A stretch of DNA of 49,178 nt from Nitrososphaerota archaeon (GTDB lineage: Archaea > Thermoproteota > Nitrososphaeria > Nitrososphaerales > JAAOZN01), in assembly GCA_011605775.1 (NCBI GenBank), contig JAAOZN010000083.1:1-49178 (forward strand). The letters are read 5' to 3'. Both the position numbers and the translations under genes were made by a program. Of this stretch, positions 42,897 through 49,178 are shown piece by piece (within the stretch, counting starts at the first letter, position 1; the number at the start of each line of letters is the position of its first letter). Below the pieces are notes generated by a model. The model was not told the origin of the DNA. It made no database searches and worked only from the letters and a program-made list of their open reading frames with translations.

Positions 42897-44429
42897 TTGA
42901 ATGTGGAACGAGGCAAAGAAGAGCTTAGACGATACGAGGAGATAAATGAGAAGATTCGACGTGGAGACGCAGTAGTTATGACCGCTGAAGAGTTCATCGA
43001 ATTTGTTGAGCAGAGCGGGTTAGAAAAAGCAGCTAAAGAAGTTGATGTTGTAACAACAGGCACCTTCGGCGCTATGTGCAGCTCAGGCGCCTTCCTAAAT
43101 TTTGGCCACTCTGAGCCGCCTATTAAGATGGTTAGATGCTGGCTTAATGATGTTCCTGTGTATAAAGGGCTTGCTGCCGTAGACGCATACTTAGGCGCTA
43201 CATCGATGAGTGAAACCAAGCCTTTTGAATACGGTGGGGGGCACGTAATAGAGGATCTGGTTTCTGGTAAGGAGGTTGAGTTGAGAGCTGAATCATATGG
43301 CACGGACTGCTACCCGAGAAGAAGCTTAGAGACTACGATCATCTTAGATGATCTTAACCAAGCCTACCTCTATAACCCACGCAACGCCTACCAGAGATAC
43401 AACGCAGCAACGAACACCTCCGACCACATCCTCTACACCTACATGGGAACACTATTGCCTAGATACGGTAACGTAACCTTCTCAGGCTCAGGTCAACTCA
43501 GCCCCCTCTACAAAGATCTGAACTTAGAGACGATCGGCTTCGGCACCAGAATCTTCCTAGGAGGAGGCGTCGGCTACGTGGTAGGTGAAGGCACACAGCA
43601 TAAACCCCAAAGCGGGTTTGCGACACTCGCGGTCAAAGGAGACCTCAGAGGAATGAGTGCAGAGTATCTGAAGGGCGCTGTCTTCCACAACTACGGCACA
43701 ACTCTCTATGTTGGTGTAGGCATCCCAATCCCGATCATAAATATGCGTGTAGCAGCCACAGCAGCTCTTAAAGACGAAGATATACCAGTTGACATACTTG
43801 ACTATAGCGTGCCCTCCAGAGATAGACCGATCATTAAGAAGAGTAATTATGCTGAGCTCAAATCCGGTAAGGTAGTTATAGGGGATAAGGAGGTACCATC
43901 ATCCCCGCTTTCAAGCATAAAGGTTGCTAGGAAGATAGCTGAAACACTGAAGCGGTGGATAGAAGCTGGAGAGTTCTTCATACAGCGCCCGATAGAACTC
44001 CTACCAAACTACAGAGAGTTCAAGCCGCTCAAGATCAAGAAGCGCGAGGTGACAGTTGGCGACATCATGATGCCCCTTAAAGACCTCGTCTTGGCAAAAC
44101 CAGAGGACGATATAAAGAAAGTAGCGAAGATGATCATTGAGAAGAACATAGACCACGTTCCTATCGTAAGCGAAGAAGGTGTGCTGATAGGGATCGTAAC
44201 AACCTGGGATCTGACGAGAGCTTTGGCTGAGGACAAGAAGACCTTGAAAGAGATAATGACAAGATACGTCATAACAGCAAAGGAGTCTGAGAGGGTCGAT
44301 GAGGTTGCTAAGCGTATGGCAGAGCACCACATCTCAGGGTTACCCGTGGTTGATGATGTTATGCGTGTAAAGGGTCTGATTACATCAGACGACATATCCA
44401 GGAAACTCGTAGGGAGGAGAGGGGTATGA
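42897..44429 (+). CDS. Homocysteine biosynthesis protein (DUF39) with CBS pair
   Basis: 510 residues. The DUF39 domain (about 1-365) keeps two cysteines, Cys61 (GAMCSSGAF) and Cys138 (GTDCYPRR), 77 residues apart, as in Methanosarcina MA1821 to my recollection. Two CBS motifs follow (about 385-505: VGDIMMPLKDLVLAKPEDDIKKVAKMIIEKNIDHVPIV, then LKEIMTRYVITAKESERVDEV). The family makes homocysteine from aspartate semialdehyde and a sulfide source. CBS domains suggest regulation by adenosine ligands, perhaps S-adenosylmethionine. TTG start at 42897 is preceded by GGAGGT. It overlaps the next gene as ATGA. Confidence 0.92.
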   Translation: MNVERGKEELRRYEEINEKIRRGDAVVMTAEEFIEFVEQSGLEKAAKEVDVVTTGTFGAMCSSGAFLNFGHSEPPIKMVRCWLNDVPVYKGLAAVDAYLGATSMSETKPFEYGGGHVIEDLVSGKEVELRAESYGTDCYPRRSLETTIILDDLNQAYLYNPRNAYQRYNAATNTSDHILYTYMGTLLPRYGNVTFSGSGQLSPLYKDLNLETIGFGTRIFLGGGVGYVVGEGTQHKPQSGFATLAVKGDLRGMSAEYLKGAVFHNYGTTLYVGVGIPIPIINMRVAATAALKDEDIPVDILDYSVPSRDRPIIKKSNYAELKSGKVVIGDKEVPSSPLSSIKVARKIAETLKRWIEAGEFFIQRPIELLPNYREFKPLKIKKREVTVGDIMMPLKDLVLAKPEDDIKKVAKMIIEKNIDHVPIVSEEGVLIGIVTTWDLTRALAEDKKTLKEIMTRYVITAKESERVDEVAKRMAEHHISGLPVVDDVMRVKGLITSDDISRKLVGRRGV

Positions 44430-44815
44430 AAGTGAAGCTCCGATACTCACACGAAGCCGCTTCCAAACCAGTCTTAGCTGAGATCATACTGAAGACTGGG
44501 TTGCTGATCAACATCATCGAAGCCAAGCTCACACCAAAGGAGGGTGAGATGGTTATAGATATCGCTACACAAGGCCAAGCACTAAAGAGAGCCTTAGAGT
44601 ATCTTAGAGCAGCTGGTTTAGAGGTCACCGAGCTCCGCAGCCTAGTTGAAGTCGATAGAGAGCGATGCATATCCTGTGGCGCCTGCATATCGCCCTGCCC
44701 ATCTCGAGCCATAAGATTCGATGAGAGCTTAGATATCGAGATAGATGAGAGGAGGTGTATAGGTTGTGGTATATGTATAAGCGCTTGCCCACGCAAAGCC
44801 ATCCAGCTGATTTGA
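44426..44815 (+). CDS. NIL-domain ferredoxin of homocysteine synthesis
   Basis: 129 residues. The first ~75 form a NIL domain (LINIIEAKLTPKEGEMVIDIATQGQALKRALEYL); the rest carries two [4Fe-4S] motifs, CISCGACISPCP and CIGCGICISACP. It corresponds to MA1822 of Methanosarcina, the partner of the DUF39 protein in sulfide-dependent homocysteine synthesis, presumably providing reducing power. ATG at 44426 overlaps the upstream stop by 4 bp. Confidence 0.92.
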   Translation: MKVKLRYSHEAASKPVLAEIILKTGLLINIIEAKLTPKEGEMVIDIATQGQALKRALEYLRAAGLEVTELRSLVEVDRERCISCGACISPCPSRAIRFDESLDIEIDERRCIGCGICISACPRKAIQLI

Positions 44816-45630
44816 GCACGCTGATAACCCTCCCAAGCATATACCCCACATACCATAGAGACCTCTATTACGCTAACGTGAGGATCAAGGAGTCAAACCT
44901 ACACATCATCTCAGACGAAGGAGAAGCGATATCTCTCGCAGCAGAAACCGTCTATAAGCAGAGGCTCCTACTAGAACACTACATAAGAAGAGATCTAAGA
45001 TTTAGGTACGCACTCAAACCGATAAGACCGCTTGATGAAGCACCCGAAGCGGTGAAGCTCGCTTGTGTAGCGGCGGAATTAGCTGATGTAGGCCCTATGG
45101 CAGCTTTACCGGGAGCGTTAGCTGACTTAGCTACTAAGAGCATGGGGAGATTGGGCTGCAGGGTAAGGGTGGTTGAGAACGGAGGAGAGGTTTCAGCCGC
45201 CTCGCATAAAGAGATATGCGTCGCGCTCTACGCTGGTGCAACCCCCATATCCAATAAGATAGGTTTCGTGTTAGGGGGCGATGGCTTACCAGCTGGGTTG
45301 GCTACCAGCTCTGCTACCGTCAGCCACGCGATGAGTTTTGGTGAAGCAGATGCTGCTGTCGTCTACGCTGAAAGCGCTGCTTTAGCCGATGCTGCTGCCA
45401 CAAGGATATGTAATGCGGTTAAGGGGGAAGATGAGGGTGCGGTGCAAAGTGGGTTGGAGGAGGCGGATAAGATCGATCGCCTTCATGGTGTTTTCATCGT
45501 CAAAGGCAGATATGTGGGTAGGAAAGGTAGGTTACCTAAGATCGTAAGAATCAGAGGATTAGATAAAGGCGAAGCAGACTACATAGAACCCTTCTTACAC
45601 AAATGGTTGGGGCTCGAAAGATATTTGTAG
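44812..45630 (+). CDS. UPF0280 protein of homocysteine synthesis
   Basis: About 272 residues of the UPF0280 (COG2122, ApbE-like fold) family: YYANVRIKESNLHIISDEGEAISLA, PLDEAPEAVKLACVAAELADVGPMAALPGALAD, NGGEVSAASHKEICVALYAG and LGGDGLPAGLATSSATVSHAMSFGEADAAVVYA. MA1715 of the same family takes part in homocysteine formation in Methanosarcina. I chose the TTG at 44812 (overlapping the ferredoxin stop as TTGA) over the GTG at 44755, which would overlap by 61 bp. It closes the three-gene operon. Confidence 0.88.
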   Translation: MSTLITLPSIYPTYHRDLYYANVRIKESNLHIISDEGEAISLAAETVYKQRLLLEHYIRRDLRFRYALKPIRPLDEAPEAVKLACVAAELADVGPMAALPGALADLATKSMGRLGCRVRVVENGGEVSAASHKEICVALYAGATPISNKIGFVLGGDGLPAGLATSSATVSHAMSFGEADAAVVYAESAALADAAATRICNAVKGEDEGAVQSGLEEADKIDRLHGVFIVKGRYVGRKGRLPKIVRIRGLDKGEADYIEPFLHKWLGLERYL

Positions 45631-45654: not shown

Positions 45655-46293
45655 ATGGGTAGTTTAATAGATGTGGAAACGCTAGGTAGGATTGAGGGTA
45701 GGCTTAGGGAGATAGAGGAGCGGCGTGAAAAGATCTTAAGAGATGTGCGTGCCGTAACGCTGAACGCTTCCAAAGCTATCATAAGTGTGCACGCGAAGAG
45801 GAGGAAGGAGGCTGAGCGTCTACTTAAGGAGTCGAGGAGGGTTTTGGTCGAAACCTCTAAGATAGCTGGAAACGACCTCCAAAAGTATCTTATTCAACCG
45901 GCAGCAGAGTTTGTTGAGGCATCTATAACCATAGCTGTATCTAAGAAGAAGAAGAGCATCCCTAAGCAGGAGGAATTAGGTGTAGACGACATACCCTACC
46001 TCTTAGGTATCTTAGATGCGGTAGGTGAGATCAAAAGAATGGTTTATGACCGCTTAAGAGAGGGTAGGGTGAAGGAAGCCATAAGGCTCTTCAAGGCGAT
46101 GGAGGACATATACGCTTCATTAACACCCTTCGCAGCCTACGACCATATCGTGCAGGGGATAAGGAGGAAGACCGATGTCGCCAGGGTACTGATAGAGGAC
46201 ACGAGAGCCATCGTAACCGAAGAATTAAGGCGTGCCGCGCTCATAAAAGACCTTCAAAAGACAATTAAAATGGCGGGCAGCGATGAACCCTAA
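45655..46293 (+). CDS. Translin family RNA-binding protein
   Basis: 212 residues, all-helical. The segments LGRIEGRLREIEERREKILRDVRAVTLNASKAI, QPAAEFVEASITIAV and GVDDIPYLLGILDAVGEIKRMVYDRLREG match archaeal translin/TRAX proteins, which form octameric barrels and process RNA; the glutamates in EFVEA and GEIKR correspond to TRAX catalytic acids, so it may be an active nuclease like archaeal C3PO. ATG at 45655. It overlaps endonuclease V by 11 bp, and 24 bp separate it from the UPF0280 gene. Confidence 0.88.
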   Translation: MGSLIDVETLGRIEGRLREIEERREKILRDVRAVTLNASKAIISVHAKRRKEAERLLKESRRVLVETSKIAGNDLQKYLIQPAAEFVEASITIAVSKKKKSIPKQEELGVDDIPYLLGILDAVGEIKRMVYDRLREGRVKEAIRLFKAMEDIYASLTPFAAYDHIVQGIRRKTDVARVLIEDTRAIVTEELRRAALIKDLQKTIKMAGSDEP

Positions 46294-46918
46294 GCCTATG
46301 GAGGATCAGATAATATTCTTCGAAGCTATGCAGAAAGCTATAGCCAAGCTCTACCGAAGTGGGGTTGAGCCGAAGATAACCAAGGTGTGTGGGCTTGACG
46401 CAGCCTACTCCAACAACACCGCATCGGCAGCCGCTGTGATCTGGGAGATCGGGAAAGGTGTTGTTGAAAAGAGTGTGATAAGAAGCACCCCCTCCTTCCC
46501 CTACATACCAACACTACTCTACGCCAGAGAAGCACCCCTCTTATTGGCTGCATACAGAAACCTTAGGGGTGTGCCAGACCTCATTCTGGTGGATGGTCAC
46601 GGCTTAGCCCACCCTAGAAGAGCTGGTTTGGCTACAGTGATAGGTGTTCTTCTCGACCAACCTACTGTTGGTGTGGCTAAGAGGCTTCTTGTTGGTGAAG
46701 TTGAAGATAGCGGTAAAGCGCTCGCTAGAATAGTTTATGAGGGTAGATGTGTAGGATACCGAGTTAAACCCGAGGGTTGCAGAGCCTTTTACGTAAGCCC
46801 TGGGCATAAAGTTGGGTTGAGTGGTGTGAGGAGAATAATTCAACTACTAGGCTTAAGATACCCAGATGCGCTTAGAGAGGCTGATAGGCTTGCAAGAAGC
46901 TGGAGACAAGCAGCCTAA
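46283..46918 (+). CDS. nfi: Endonuclease V
   Basis: 211 residues. Catalytic acids are visible as Asp39 (CGLDAAYS), Glu83 (YAREAPLLL) and Asp104 (LILVDGHGLAHPRRAG). The wedge region and KRLLVG segment also fit the family. It cuts DNA or RNA one nucleotide 3' of deoxyinosine or inosine; the archaeal enzyme repairs deaminated adenine in DNA, while the human form acts on RNA. ATG at 46283, inside the end of the translin gene, so the two are coupled. Confidence 0.93.
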   Translation: MNPKPMEDQIIFFEAMQKAIAKLYRSGVEPKITKVCGLDAAYSNNTASAAAVIWEIGKGVVEKSVIRSTPSFPYIPTLLYAREAPLLLAAYRNLRGVPDLILVDGHGLAHPRRAGLATVIGVLLDQPTVGVAKRLLVGEVEDSGKALARIVYEGRCVGYRVKPEGCRAFYVSPGHKVGLSGVRRIIQLLGLRYPDALREADRLARSWRQAA

Positions 46919-47609
46919 GATAAAACCAGCGCTCATACCTACGCTCATAGAGCTTCTTCTGCTGGGCGCCAAAGATGAGCCGATCAAGATCTCGACCTAT
47001 GAGTTAGCTAAGAGGATCGGTCGCTCACAGCAAGCGGCATCCAACCACCTACTTGAGTTGGAGAGGGAGGGCTACGTAGAGCGGTTAAGGGTGAAAGGAG
47101 GCTTCGGGGTTAAGCTGAGCGAGCAGGGTCTGCGGGTATTGGCTGACATCTACCAGAGGCTGAGGCAAGCTCTAGAAGCTATGCCCGAATCTATTACGCT
47201 ACGTGGAAGGGTGTTCACAGGAATCGGGGAGGGCGCCTACTACGTTTCTCTGAAAGGGTACCGTAAGCAGTTCATAGCTAAACTAGGTTTCGACCCCTAT
47301 CCGGGCACGTTGAACATAAAGCTCTCCACACCTGTCGATAGGAGGCTTAGGCGGGAGCTGGAGCATTACAGGGGCATAAGGATACACGAGTTTGAGGATG
47401 GGCAGCGAACGTATGGTGGGGCTAGATGCTTTAGAGCGACTCTAAACGATGTGGTGGAGGGTGCTGTGCTCGCTATAGATCGTACACACTACGATGATAG
47501 TGTAGTTGAGTTTATAGCGCCTGTGAATGTTAGAGAGAGGCTTGGGTTGAAGGATGGCGCTGAAGTAACCGTTAACGTGCGGTTGATGGAGGATGATTCT
47601 GAGCGCTAA
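46866..47609 (+). CDS. ribK: CTP-dependent riboflavin kinase with HTH domain
   Basis: 247 residues. An N-terminal winged helix (about 25-95: YELAKRIGRSQQAASNHLLELEREGYVERL) precedes the archaeal CTP-dependent kinase domain (about 110-245), with GRVFTGIGEGAYYVSLKGYRKQF and FDPYPGTLNIKLS. This architecture is the RbkR type, a flavin kinase that also regulates transcription. It phosphorylates riboflavin to FMN. The ATG at 46866 gives a 53-bp overlap with nfi; a TTG at 46890 is a possible alternative start. It ends 4 bp into the convergent FAD synthetase gene. Confidence 0.92.
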   Translation: MRLERLIGLQEAGDKQPKIKPALIPTLIELLLLGAKDEPIKISTYELAKRIGRSQQAASNHLLELEREGYVERLRVKGGFGVKLSEQGLRVLADIYQRLRQALEAMPESITLRGRVFTGIGEGAYYVSLKGYRKQFIAKLGFDPYPGTLNIKLSTPVDRRLRRELEHYRGIRIHEFEDGQRTYGGARCFRATLNDVVEGAVLAIDRTHYDDSVVEFIAPVNVRERLGLKDGAEVTVNVRLMEDDSER

Positions 47610-48232
47610 AAGTCTTCTAATACGTCGTCCCTTGTTCTGAGGATAGTGGATGTCTTCACATGGGGTTTAGGGGTATCTAACCTCACCACCTCCACTTTTA
47701 CACCCCGCTTCTCGCTCTCTGAACGCAGCTCATCCTCTCTGTGCTTCTGATCATACCCTAGTGCTATTATGTCTGGGCGTACAGCTTCGACAACCTCGTA
47801 GATGCTCGACTCACTTCCCAGCAGCGCTAGATCAACGTATTTAACTGAGGAGACGAGCTCAACACGTTCAGATTCGCTATTTATGGGCATATGCCCCTTA
47901 TTCGCCAAGACCGTCTTATCCCTCGCAACCGAAACTACGAGCACATCGCCTAGAGCCTTGGATGACTTCAGCGTGTAGATGTGCCCCGGGTGTATAACGT
48001 CGAAGACCCCGCCTGCTAAAACCACCTTTAGAGTACTTCTACCCTTTTCGGTTAAGAGGAGGGTGCCACGGCTTCTCTTAATCAAACCTTTTTTCGCCGC
48101 TTCCTTAATCAGCTTCCTTAGTGTTGCTGTGTTGAATGGTAGTGTCTGTTTGAGATCCTCTATCCTCGCGGCTCCTTGCTTTATCTGGTTGATGAGGATC
48201 TTTGCTAAGACCTCTTTTATCTCCTTGTTCAC
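47606..48232 (-). CDS. ribL: FAD synthetase with N-terminal winged helix
   Basis: About 208 residues. The C-terminal nucleotidyltransferase has AGGVFDVIHPGHIYTL (HxGH) and KTSTILRTR, and matches archaeal FAD synthetase RibL, which transfers AMP to FMN. In front of it is a ~65-residue winged helix (IKEVLAKILINQIKQGAARIEDLKQTLPFNTATLRKLIKEAAKKGLIKRSRG) that plain RibL proteins lack. The start GTG at 48232 overlaps the Dph5 stop as GTGA (TTG at 48235 is the alternative). It converges on ribK with 4 bp overlap. Confidence 0.85.
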   Translation of the reverse strand: MNKEIKEVLAKILINQIKQGAARIEDLKQTLPFNTATLRKLIKEAAKKGLIKRSRGTLLLTEKGRSTLKVVLAGGVFDVIHPGHIYTLKSSKALGDVLVVSVARDKTVLANKGHMPINSESERVELVSSVKYVDLALLGSESSIYEVVEAVRPDIIALGYDQKHREDELRSESEKRGVKVEVVRLDTPKPHVKTSTILRTRDDVLEDF

Positions 48233-49178
48233 CAAGGTACCTCCACCAAACCTAGGAAGCGTAGCGCATCTAGAAGCCCTTCGGCGTATCCTATGCTTAG
48301 TATGGCTAGCTCAGGCTTTCCTTCGTTTAGGAAGCGTAGTGCGTCGCTGCTGTAGCAGTCGACGTTTTCAAGTAGATCGGTGGTGTTGAGTTTGGTTTCC
48401 TTTGTGGTGAGCATCTCTCTTACCCTCTTTAGGGTTGCGCGGGTCTTCTCAACGTATCTGGGTACTAAAATGTTAGCCTTACTCTTGGCGTATTGTGTGT
48501 TGTTGGCGTTGCTGCACTCTGTCTTGAAGAGTGTTTCGACGGCTTCTGCTTCTGTAAAGTGTAGGTCTGCTGGTATCACTATGCTGTAGGGTGGTTCGCC
48601 GTAGTCGTAGTGTAGGAGATCTTTGAGCTGCCCAACTTTTATCAGCTGGTTTCTTTGGCATAGGCGTGCTGCGACAGCTGCGAATAGATTTGGGTTGAGG
48701 ATTCCTAGCCTCGCTTCTTCGTCTGCGTCGATCAGCATCTTTAGGGCTTCGCTTGGGGTTAGGTTTCGGTTTGGGTGCCACTCTAGTAGTAGGAGTGTGT
48801 GTAGCCCTCTGAGTAGGTTCCAGTGGATGGTGTCTAGCACTGTGAGCGCTGCTTGTGGCGATGCTGTTACGGTGACGGTTTTGCCGAATTTGTATTGGTG
48901 GAGCCCTAGTTCGCCTGCTATGCAGCAGACTATGGATGTGCTGTGTATTATCTTGGTTTGCACACCCTCTTTGACCGCTCTCACCCTGAGCTCTTGGTGT
49001 GTTGTCGCAACCATGGGGTCTCCTGAGCACGCTAACGCTACATCAGCCTCCTTCGCCTCTCTAAGAATCCTTCTACCATCTTCCACGAACTCCCTAGACA
49101 CCTCCCTAACCTCTCTTCCCAAGAACTCTGCCAGCTCCTCTGCCGATGGCGCTGATGGGTTTGTGTAGCGCTCAAGGT
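48229..49178 (-). CDS. dph5: Diphthine synthase fused to DUF357, 5' partial
   Basis: The frame is open to the window edge; at least 316 codons are seen. The N-terminal part is diphthine synthase (YTNPSAPSAEELAEFLGREV, ALACSGDPMVATTHQELR, HSTSIVCCIAGELGLHQYKFGKTVTVT, DLHFTEAEAVETLF), which methylates the modified histidine of EF2. The last ~90 residues (VPRYVEKTRATLKRV, SSDALRFLNEGKPELAILSIGYAEGLLDALRFLGL) match DUF357, usually a separate small protein encoded next to dph5 or ribL. A TTG at 49122 is in frame, but the residues before it belong to Dph5, so the true start lies beyond the window. Confidence 0.9.
   Translation of the reverse strand, partial: LERYTNPSAPSAEELAEFLGREVREVSREFVEDGRRILREAKEADVALACSGDPMVATTHQELRVRAVKEGVQTKIIHSTSIVCCIAGELGLHQYKFGKTVTVTASPQAALTVLDTIHWNLLRGLHTLLLLEWHPNRNLTPSEALKMLIDADEEARLGILNPNLFAAVAARLCQRNQLIKVGQLKDLLHYDYGEPPYSIVIPADLHFTEAEAVETLFKTECSNANNTQYAKSKANILVPRYVEKTRATLKRVREMLTTKETKLNTTDLLENVDCYSSDALRFLNEGKPELAILSIGYAEGLLDALRFLGLVEVPW

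Follow-up and report, generated by a model that had tools for sequence, protein, structure and literature searches.

Organization of the rbkR-ribL locus

The window, by which we mean the whole stretch of 49,178 nucleotides that was analysed, carries two genes predicted to encode successive enzymes of flavin cofactor synthesis, RbkR (riboflavin to FMN) and RibL (FMN to FAD) (Table 1). The two genes are convergent, as their 3′ ends share 4 bp. On the strand of ribL, dph5 overlaps ribL by 7 bp, and the two genes form one operon in the window. The Dph5 protein carries DUF357 (PF04010, 56 bits) at residues 240–310. On the other side, a gene for Endonuclease V (46283–46918, +) runs about 50 bp into the start of rbkR, and rbkR is therefore probably without a promoter of its own here. 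A gene for a translin-family protein (45655–46293) lies upstream of the Endonuclease V gene. Further upstream (42897–45630, +) are a HcyBio (PF01837)-CBS gene, then a NIL-domain/4Fe-4S ferredoxin, and an ORF without a Pfam match whose product looks like COG2122 ApbE-like proteins, a cluster similar to the methanogen-type homocysteine synthesis cluster.

Table 1. Features of the rbkR-ribL-dph5 region, in coordinates of the window.
Feature	Coordinates	Strand	Description
rbkR	46866..47609	+	247 aa; bifunctional: CTP-dependent riboflavin kinase (product FMN) and winged-helix regulator
RbkR recognition helix, about residues 53–67, RSQQAASNHLLELER	47022..47066	+	SQQ invariant in 71 genomes (conservation profile)
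ribL	47606..48235	-	209 aa, TTG start; putative archaeal-type FMN adenylyltransferase (FAD synthetase), N-terminal winged helix
RibL N-terminal winged-helix domain, residues 1–69	48029..48235	-	AF2 pLDDT 95.9; Foldseek MntR/IdeR
RibL helix 3 (would-be recognition helix), residues 36–48, TATLRKLIKEAAK	48092..48130	-	DSSP of AF2 model
RibL nucleotidyltransferase domain, residues 70–209	47609..48028	-	PF01467; HPGH at 82–85; 3glv
dph5 (diphthine synthase), C-terminal DUF357	48229..49176	-	TIGR00522 187 bits; 5′ end cut by window edge

RbkR belongs to a family of enzyme-regulators

The CTP-dependent riboflavin kinase profile PF01982 was matched over its whole length by residues 116–238 of RbkR (143.8 bits), and a MarR-type winged helix-turn-helix (wHTH) was detected by Pfam at residues 38–75 (26.2 bits). 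The model NF010762, named 'winged helix-turn-helix domain-containing protein/riboflavin kinase', scored 217 bits, below its cut-off of 279, and the riboflavin kinase of T. acidophilum (3cta/5trd) was matched by residues 42–238 with 114 bits and an E-value of 6.7e-32. The invariant residues of the recognition helix are S54, Q55 and Q56, and SQQ is also present in the T. acidophilum protein. Indeed, the known members of the family, T. acidophilum TA1064 (3cta/5trd) and Haloferax HVO_0326, have the same two domains as the window protein, which departed from them in none of the features compared. The gene rbkR has been called 'bifunctional as gene regulator and enzyme' (PMC8305020). Judged by these matches, the window RbkR is a member of this known enzyme-regulator family and is predicted to double as a transcriptional regulator.

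RibL is the probable FAD synthetase

PF01467 was matched by residues 73–199 of RibL (61.5 bits), a region that includes the HPGH motif. Three PF01467 proteins are encoded in the window genome, which is 99.6% complete; the other two are read as NadM (L002) and CoaD (L004), and the bacterial FAD synthetase family FAD_syn (PF06574) is absent from the genome. From homology and this closure of the genome's inventory, we infer that RibL is its ATP:FMN adenylyltransferase. The highest NCBIfam score for RibL came from rfaE_dom_II (87 bits), and the nearest solved structure, 3glv, is titled 'lipopolysaccharide core biosynthesis protein', but this score is far below the model cut-off of 181.5, and in a tree constructed without MJ1179 the protein grouped with haloarchaeal FAD synthases and 3glv (fork 98/98), RfaE2/HldE being placed elsewhere on a separate long branch (100/100, length 2.45). 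An RfaE2/HldE identity was rejected on these two grounds, and a sugar-phosphate enzyme in place of RibL is made highly improbable also by a RibL match in 173 of the 174 high-quality genomes of the phylum sample and by the position of this only unassigned PF01467 protein beside a riboflavin kinase, in a genome without the bacterial enzyme.

The nucleotidyltransferase domain with its HPGH motif is common to the window protein and to the archaeal RibL proteins known from M. jannaschii (MJ1179) and haloarchaea. Unlike these, the window protein has an extra N-terminal winged helix, and none of its 209 residues is a cysteine. The two conserved cysteines of RibL are, we presume, tied to the air sensitivity of MJ1179. 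They were included in the description of archaeal RibL, but EhFADS of Entamoeba also lacks them and is active (PMC11423594), so that the two cysteines are dispensable for FAD synthetase activity.

The N terminus of RibL is predicted to fold as a winged helix

On the N terminus of RibL all Pfam HTH models were below threshold, among them HTH_45 with 21.0 bits against a cut-off of 25.5. Per-sequence Pfam scans of the domain in relatives returned many winged-helix families, the commonest being PF24409 ('wHTH-PRTase associated'; 14 of 39). The AlphaFold2 monomer model of the full-length protein, for which the alignment consisted of 16 sequences from the window and the fetched loci, had a pLDDT of 88.9 and contained a canonical winged helix in residues 4–67, with the elements H4–20, H25–31, H36–48, E52–55, E58–61 and H63–67 assigned by DSSP. 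For the domain modelled alone, again as a monomer and with 39 sequences in the alignment, the confidence was higher still (Table 1).

Foldseek placed this domain closest to the winged helices of MntR and IdeR (TMq 0.85–0.88, 1.3–1.5 Å); the E-values of only about 0.01–0.08 are weak because the domain is just 67 residues long. The fold neighbours also included the N-terminal domains of SAM O-methyltransferases, the mRNA-binding winged helix of SelB and RNA-bound TcaR. Profile searches with the domain returned a similar mixture (5zr4 with an E-value of 4.5e-5, AF1382, CheF and DnrK), and true transcription factors made up the majority of the neighbours by profile and by fold. With the full-length model, the best 50 matches in the PDB were all nucleotidyltransferases aligned over at most 150 columns (best 3glv, TMt 0.90), so none of these 50 structures spans both domains of RibL. 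A recent duplication of the RbkR wHTH as the origin of the domain was not supported, as hhalign of the two domains (20% identity in a 45-column alignment, at a probability of 94%) gave only a general winged-helix kinship.

The architecture described in the first-pass annotation was thus upheld: both flavin enzymes carry winged helices, that of RbkR in a known type of regulator and that of RibL ahead of an HxGH nucleotidyltransferase; prediction of the RibL N terminus returned a winged helix, and the two genes face each other.

Distribution of the winged helix and gene order in relatives

Of 200 genomes in a sample of the GTDB phylum Thermoproteota, 195 had a RibL match, and 80 named loci, nearly all titled Nitrososphaeria or Thaumarchaeota, were fetched. 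The nearest of these was from Nitrososphaeria archaeon JZ1_bin.63 (59%). A winged-helix profile matched 105 of 110 RibL genes from Nitrososphaeria and near relatives at E<1e-3, some rows of the profile being themselves in the set, and it also matched two more distant RibL proteins (L115 and L134). Convergent rbkR adjoined ribL in 68 of the 80 loci, with 3′ ends overlapping or at most 50 bp apart in 53; ribL was preceded by dph5 on its own strand in 51. Since the winged helix and the convergent order are both widespread among relatives, the pairing of rbkR and ribL is old and not peculiar to the window.

We propose that the RibL winged helix was gained at the root of Nitrososphaeria or close to it. 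Nearly a whole archaeal class, ammonia oxidisers included, has kept this domain on an enzyme of essential cofactor synthesis, and searches of open-licence literature returned no description of it. In the more distant genome L134, rbkR and the wHTH-bearing ribL stand in tandem on one strand and are not convergent.

The DNA-reading surface of RibL is not conserved

The first-pass annotation had raised the possibility that both enzymes bind DNA and so provide two levels of flavin control. In such a scheme RibL would be a NadR-like enzyme-regulator, with FMN/FAD or ATP as effector, that binds an operator through its winged helix and is layered on RbkR. Cofactor enzymes with HTH domains have precedents in RbkR itself and in NadR and BirA. 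NadR, a bacterial protein with an HTH, an NMN adenylyltransferase and a kinase, is a regulator with operators of its own, and the window RibL follows the same plan, in which an HTH precedes the HxGH adenylyltransferase of a cofactor pathway. The confident winged-helix fold closest to MntR/IdeR and the persistent tail-to-tail linkage to rbkR are also in keeping with such a role.

The RbkR wHTH of the same genomes served as the yardstick for that of RibL. Across 71 genomes, many of the loci being MAGs and the sequences phylogenetically related, mean information in RibL was 1.61 bits in the N-terminal domain, 1.60 in helix 3 and 2.94 in the catalytic domain, versus 2.50 in the wHTH, 3.30 in helix 3 and 2.79 in the kinase domain of RbkR. 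The conserved positions of the RibL domain were mainly those of the core (L10, Y14, L18, L28, I43, L46 and L51, given as the family's commonest residue), together with an LTxxGR hinge. The low conservation of helix 3 does not by itself disprove DNA binding, because recognition helix and operator can evolve in step when a regulator has one or few targets. Median dN/dS, taken over 24 independent pairs, was 0.25 for the RibL N-terminal domain and 0.073 for its catalytic domain, and 0.088 and 0.082 for the wHTH and kinase domains of RbkR. By this measure the RibL domain is under purifying selection, but loosely.

Helix 3 and the wing together carried a mean net charge of −0.24 in RibL (range −5 to +8) and of +2.65 in RbkR. 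The window RibL is unusually basic and near the top of its family, with +7 on the DNA face, as expected of a DNA binder, and +10 over the domain. However, the same face is neutral to acidic in most relatives, including near ones (−2 in L037, −3 in L038 and −3 in L049).

In three MAGs (L050, L095 and L108), 13–18 residues over helix 2 and helix 3 of RibL are deleted, while the rest of the N-terminal domain and the enzyme domain are intact. The three deletions probably represent one loss. The genomes of L095 and L108 keep an intact RbkR with SQQ. In these MAGs, one of them from Conexivisphaerales, nature provides a series of deletions within a winged helix.

We argue from these comparative data that the RibL winged helix does not in general serve to read DNA, because helix 3 is unconserved, the mean charge is neutral, dN/dS is higher, the HTH can be deleted and RbkR is retained. 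Of the two-level proposal, the part concerning RbkR held, as a protein of an established regulator type; the part assigning DNA binding to RibL across the clade was not supported, its recognition helix being unconserved and in three MAGs deleted, and its DNA face on average uncharged. In this respect RibL also differs from NadR. The comparison of RibL and RbkR within the same genomes shows how a live DNA-reading domain may be told from one that is structurally kept.

Riboflavin supply and candidate operators

None of the biosynthesis families RibB, RibH and RibD_C was found in the window genome, whereas all three were present in 14 of 14 control genomes. Six matches to ECF substrate-binding (S) components were found, one of them ThiW. 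The organism of the window is thus apparently a riboflavin auxotroph, and it still keeps RbkR. RbkR-type regulators elsewhere control riboflavin biosynthesis genes, but the window genome appears to be without such genes; because of this apparent auxotrophy, control by RbkR, if active, would concern riboflavin uptake. Among relatives, RibH was found in the tested ammonia oxidisers as well as in L036, L037 and L049, and was absent from several other related Nitrososphaeria. The RibL winged helix does not track riboflavin biosynthesis, as it is found in RibH-positive and RibH-negative groups alike.

The sequence ATTGA-N10-TCAAT recurred upstream of dph5-ribL in 14 of 37 loci. It was rejected as an operator, as it falls within the gene next upstream, whose coding sequence runs to the dph5 start, and the search upstream of dph5-ribL left no candidate operator. 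Perfect 6+6 dyads were not enriched upstream of rbkR (18 of 69 versus 16.9 in shuffles), where no clear dyad was seen, and no palindrome of the rbkR region recurred at the ECF S-component genes.

Role of the RibL winged helix

The reading that best accounts for these results, to which we assign a probability of about 0.6, is that RbkR acts as enzyme and regulator and RibL as an enzyme whose winged helix is mostly structural, serving dimerisation or docking. Flavin-responsive control would then rest on RbkR alone, with riboflavin uptake as its probable target in an auxotrophic genome. The RibL domain would have been kept as a fold without a conserved DNA-reading surface. Because the fold is kept and that surface is not, its role in most species is most probably structural, either as a site of homodimerisation or as a docking site for a partner, possibly RbkR or the DUF357 of Dph5, encoded by the upstream gene. 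A precedent is found in SAM O-methyltransferases (PigF, RedM, CalO1 and DnrK), whose N-terminal winged helix serves dimerisation. These proteins are fold or profile neighbours of the RibL domain and likewise carry it before an enzyme domain, but their catalytic domain is unrelated to that of RibL, for which dimerisation is our proposal.

Layered control by RbkR and a NadR-like RibL is unlikely in view of the conservation, charge, dN/dS and deletion data, to which are added the missing biosynthesis families that it might have controlled and a sole recurrent dyad that falls in coding sequence. Weak binding of DNA or RNA by the RibL winged helix, without sequence preference or only in basic lineages such as that of the window, is rather improbable. 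The wide spread of charge, with the window protein near its upper end, and the presence of the SelB winged helix and RNA-bound TcaR among the fold neighbours would fit such a tether; but helix 3 plus wing is at or below −1 in 48% of relatives, and since nearly half of them thus have a net negative face, tethering is not the general function. It would be a long shot that in the lineage of the window RibL both makes FAD and binds DNA, that RbkR and RibL together set riboflavin uptake and the partition between FMN and FAD in a riboflavin auxotroph, and that other Nitrososphaeria have lost the second level. Were this so, the RibL of that lineage would be the flavin counterpart of NadR.

Alternative N-terminal domains of RibL

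Most sequences examined from other RibL families had a DUF357-like N-terminal region, and PF04010 was confirmed in two of them (57.7 and 62.9 bits). In a published survey DUF357 (arCOG01224) was linked to cytidylyltransferase (PMC6393860). The fusions of DUF357 to RibL in Thermoprotei-type genomes resemble the window protein in having an added N-terminal domain of about 70–90 residues, but they have DUF357 where the window RibL has its winged helix, and in Nitrososphaeria DUF357 is carried by Dph5, encoded just upstream. The RibL winged helix was probably gained in the slot that holds DUF357 in Thermoprotei-type RibL. This variation of the N-terminal domain by lineage points to a shared partner or oligomer, which is open to testing. 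DUF357 formed the C-terminal domain of Dph5 in the window, in L035 and in L057, and the same domain is thus found on either of two neighbours according to lineage, at the C terminus of Dph5 or at the N terminus of Thermoprotei-type RibL.
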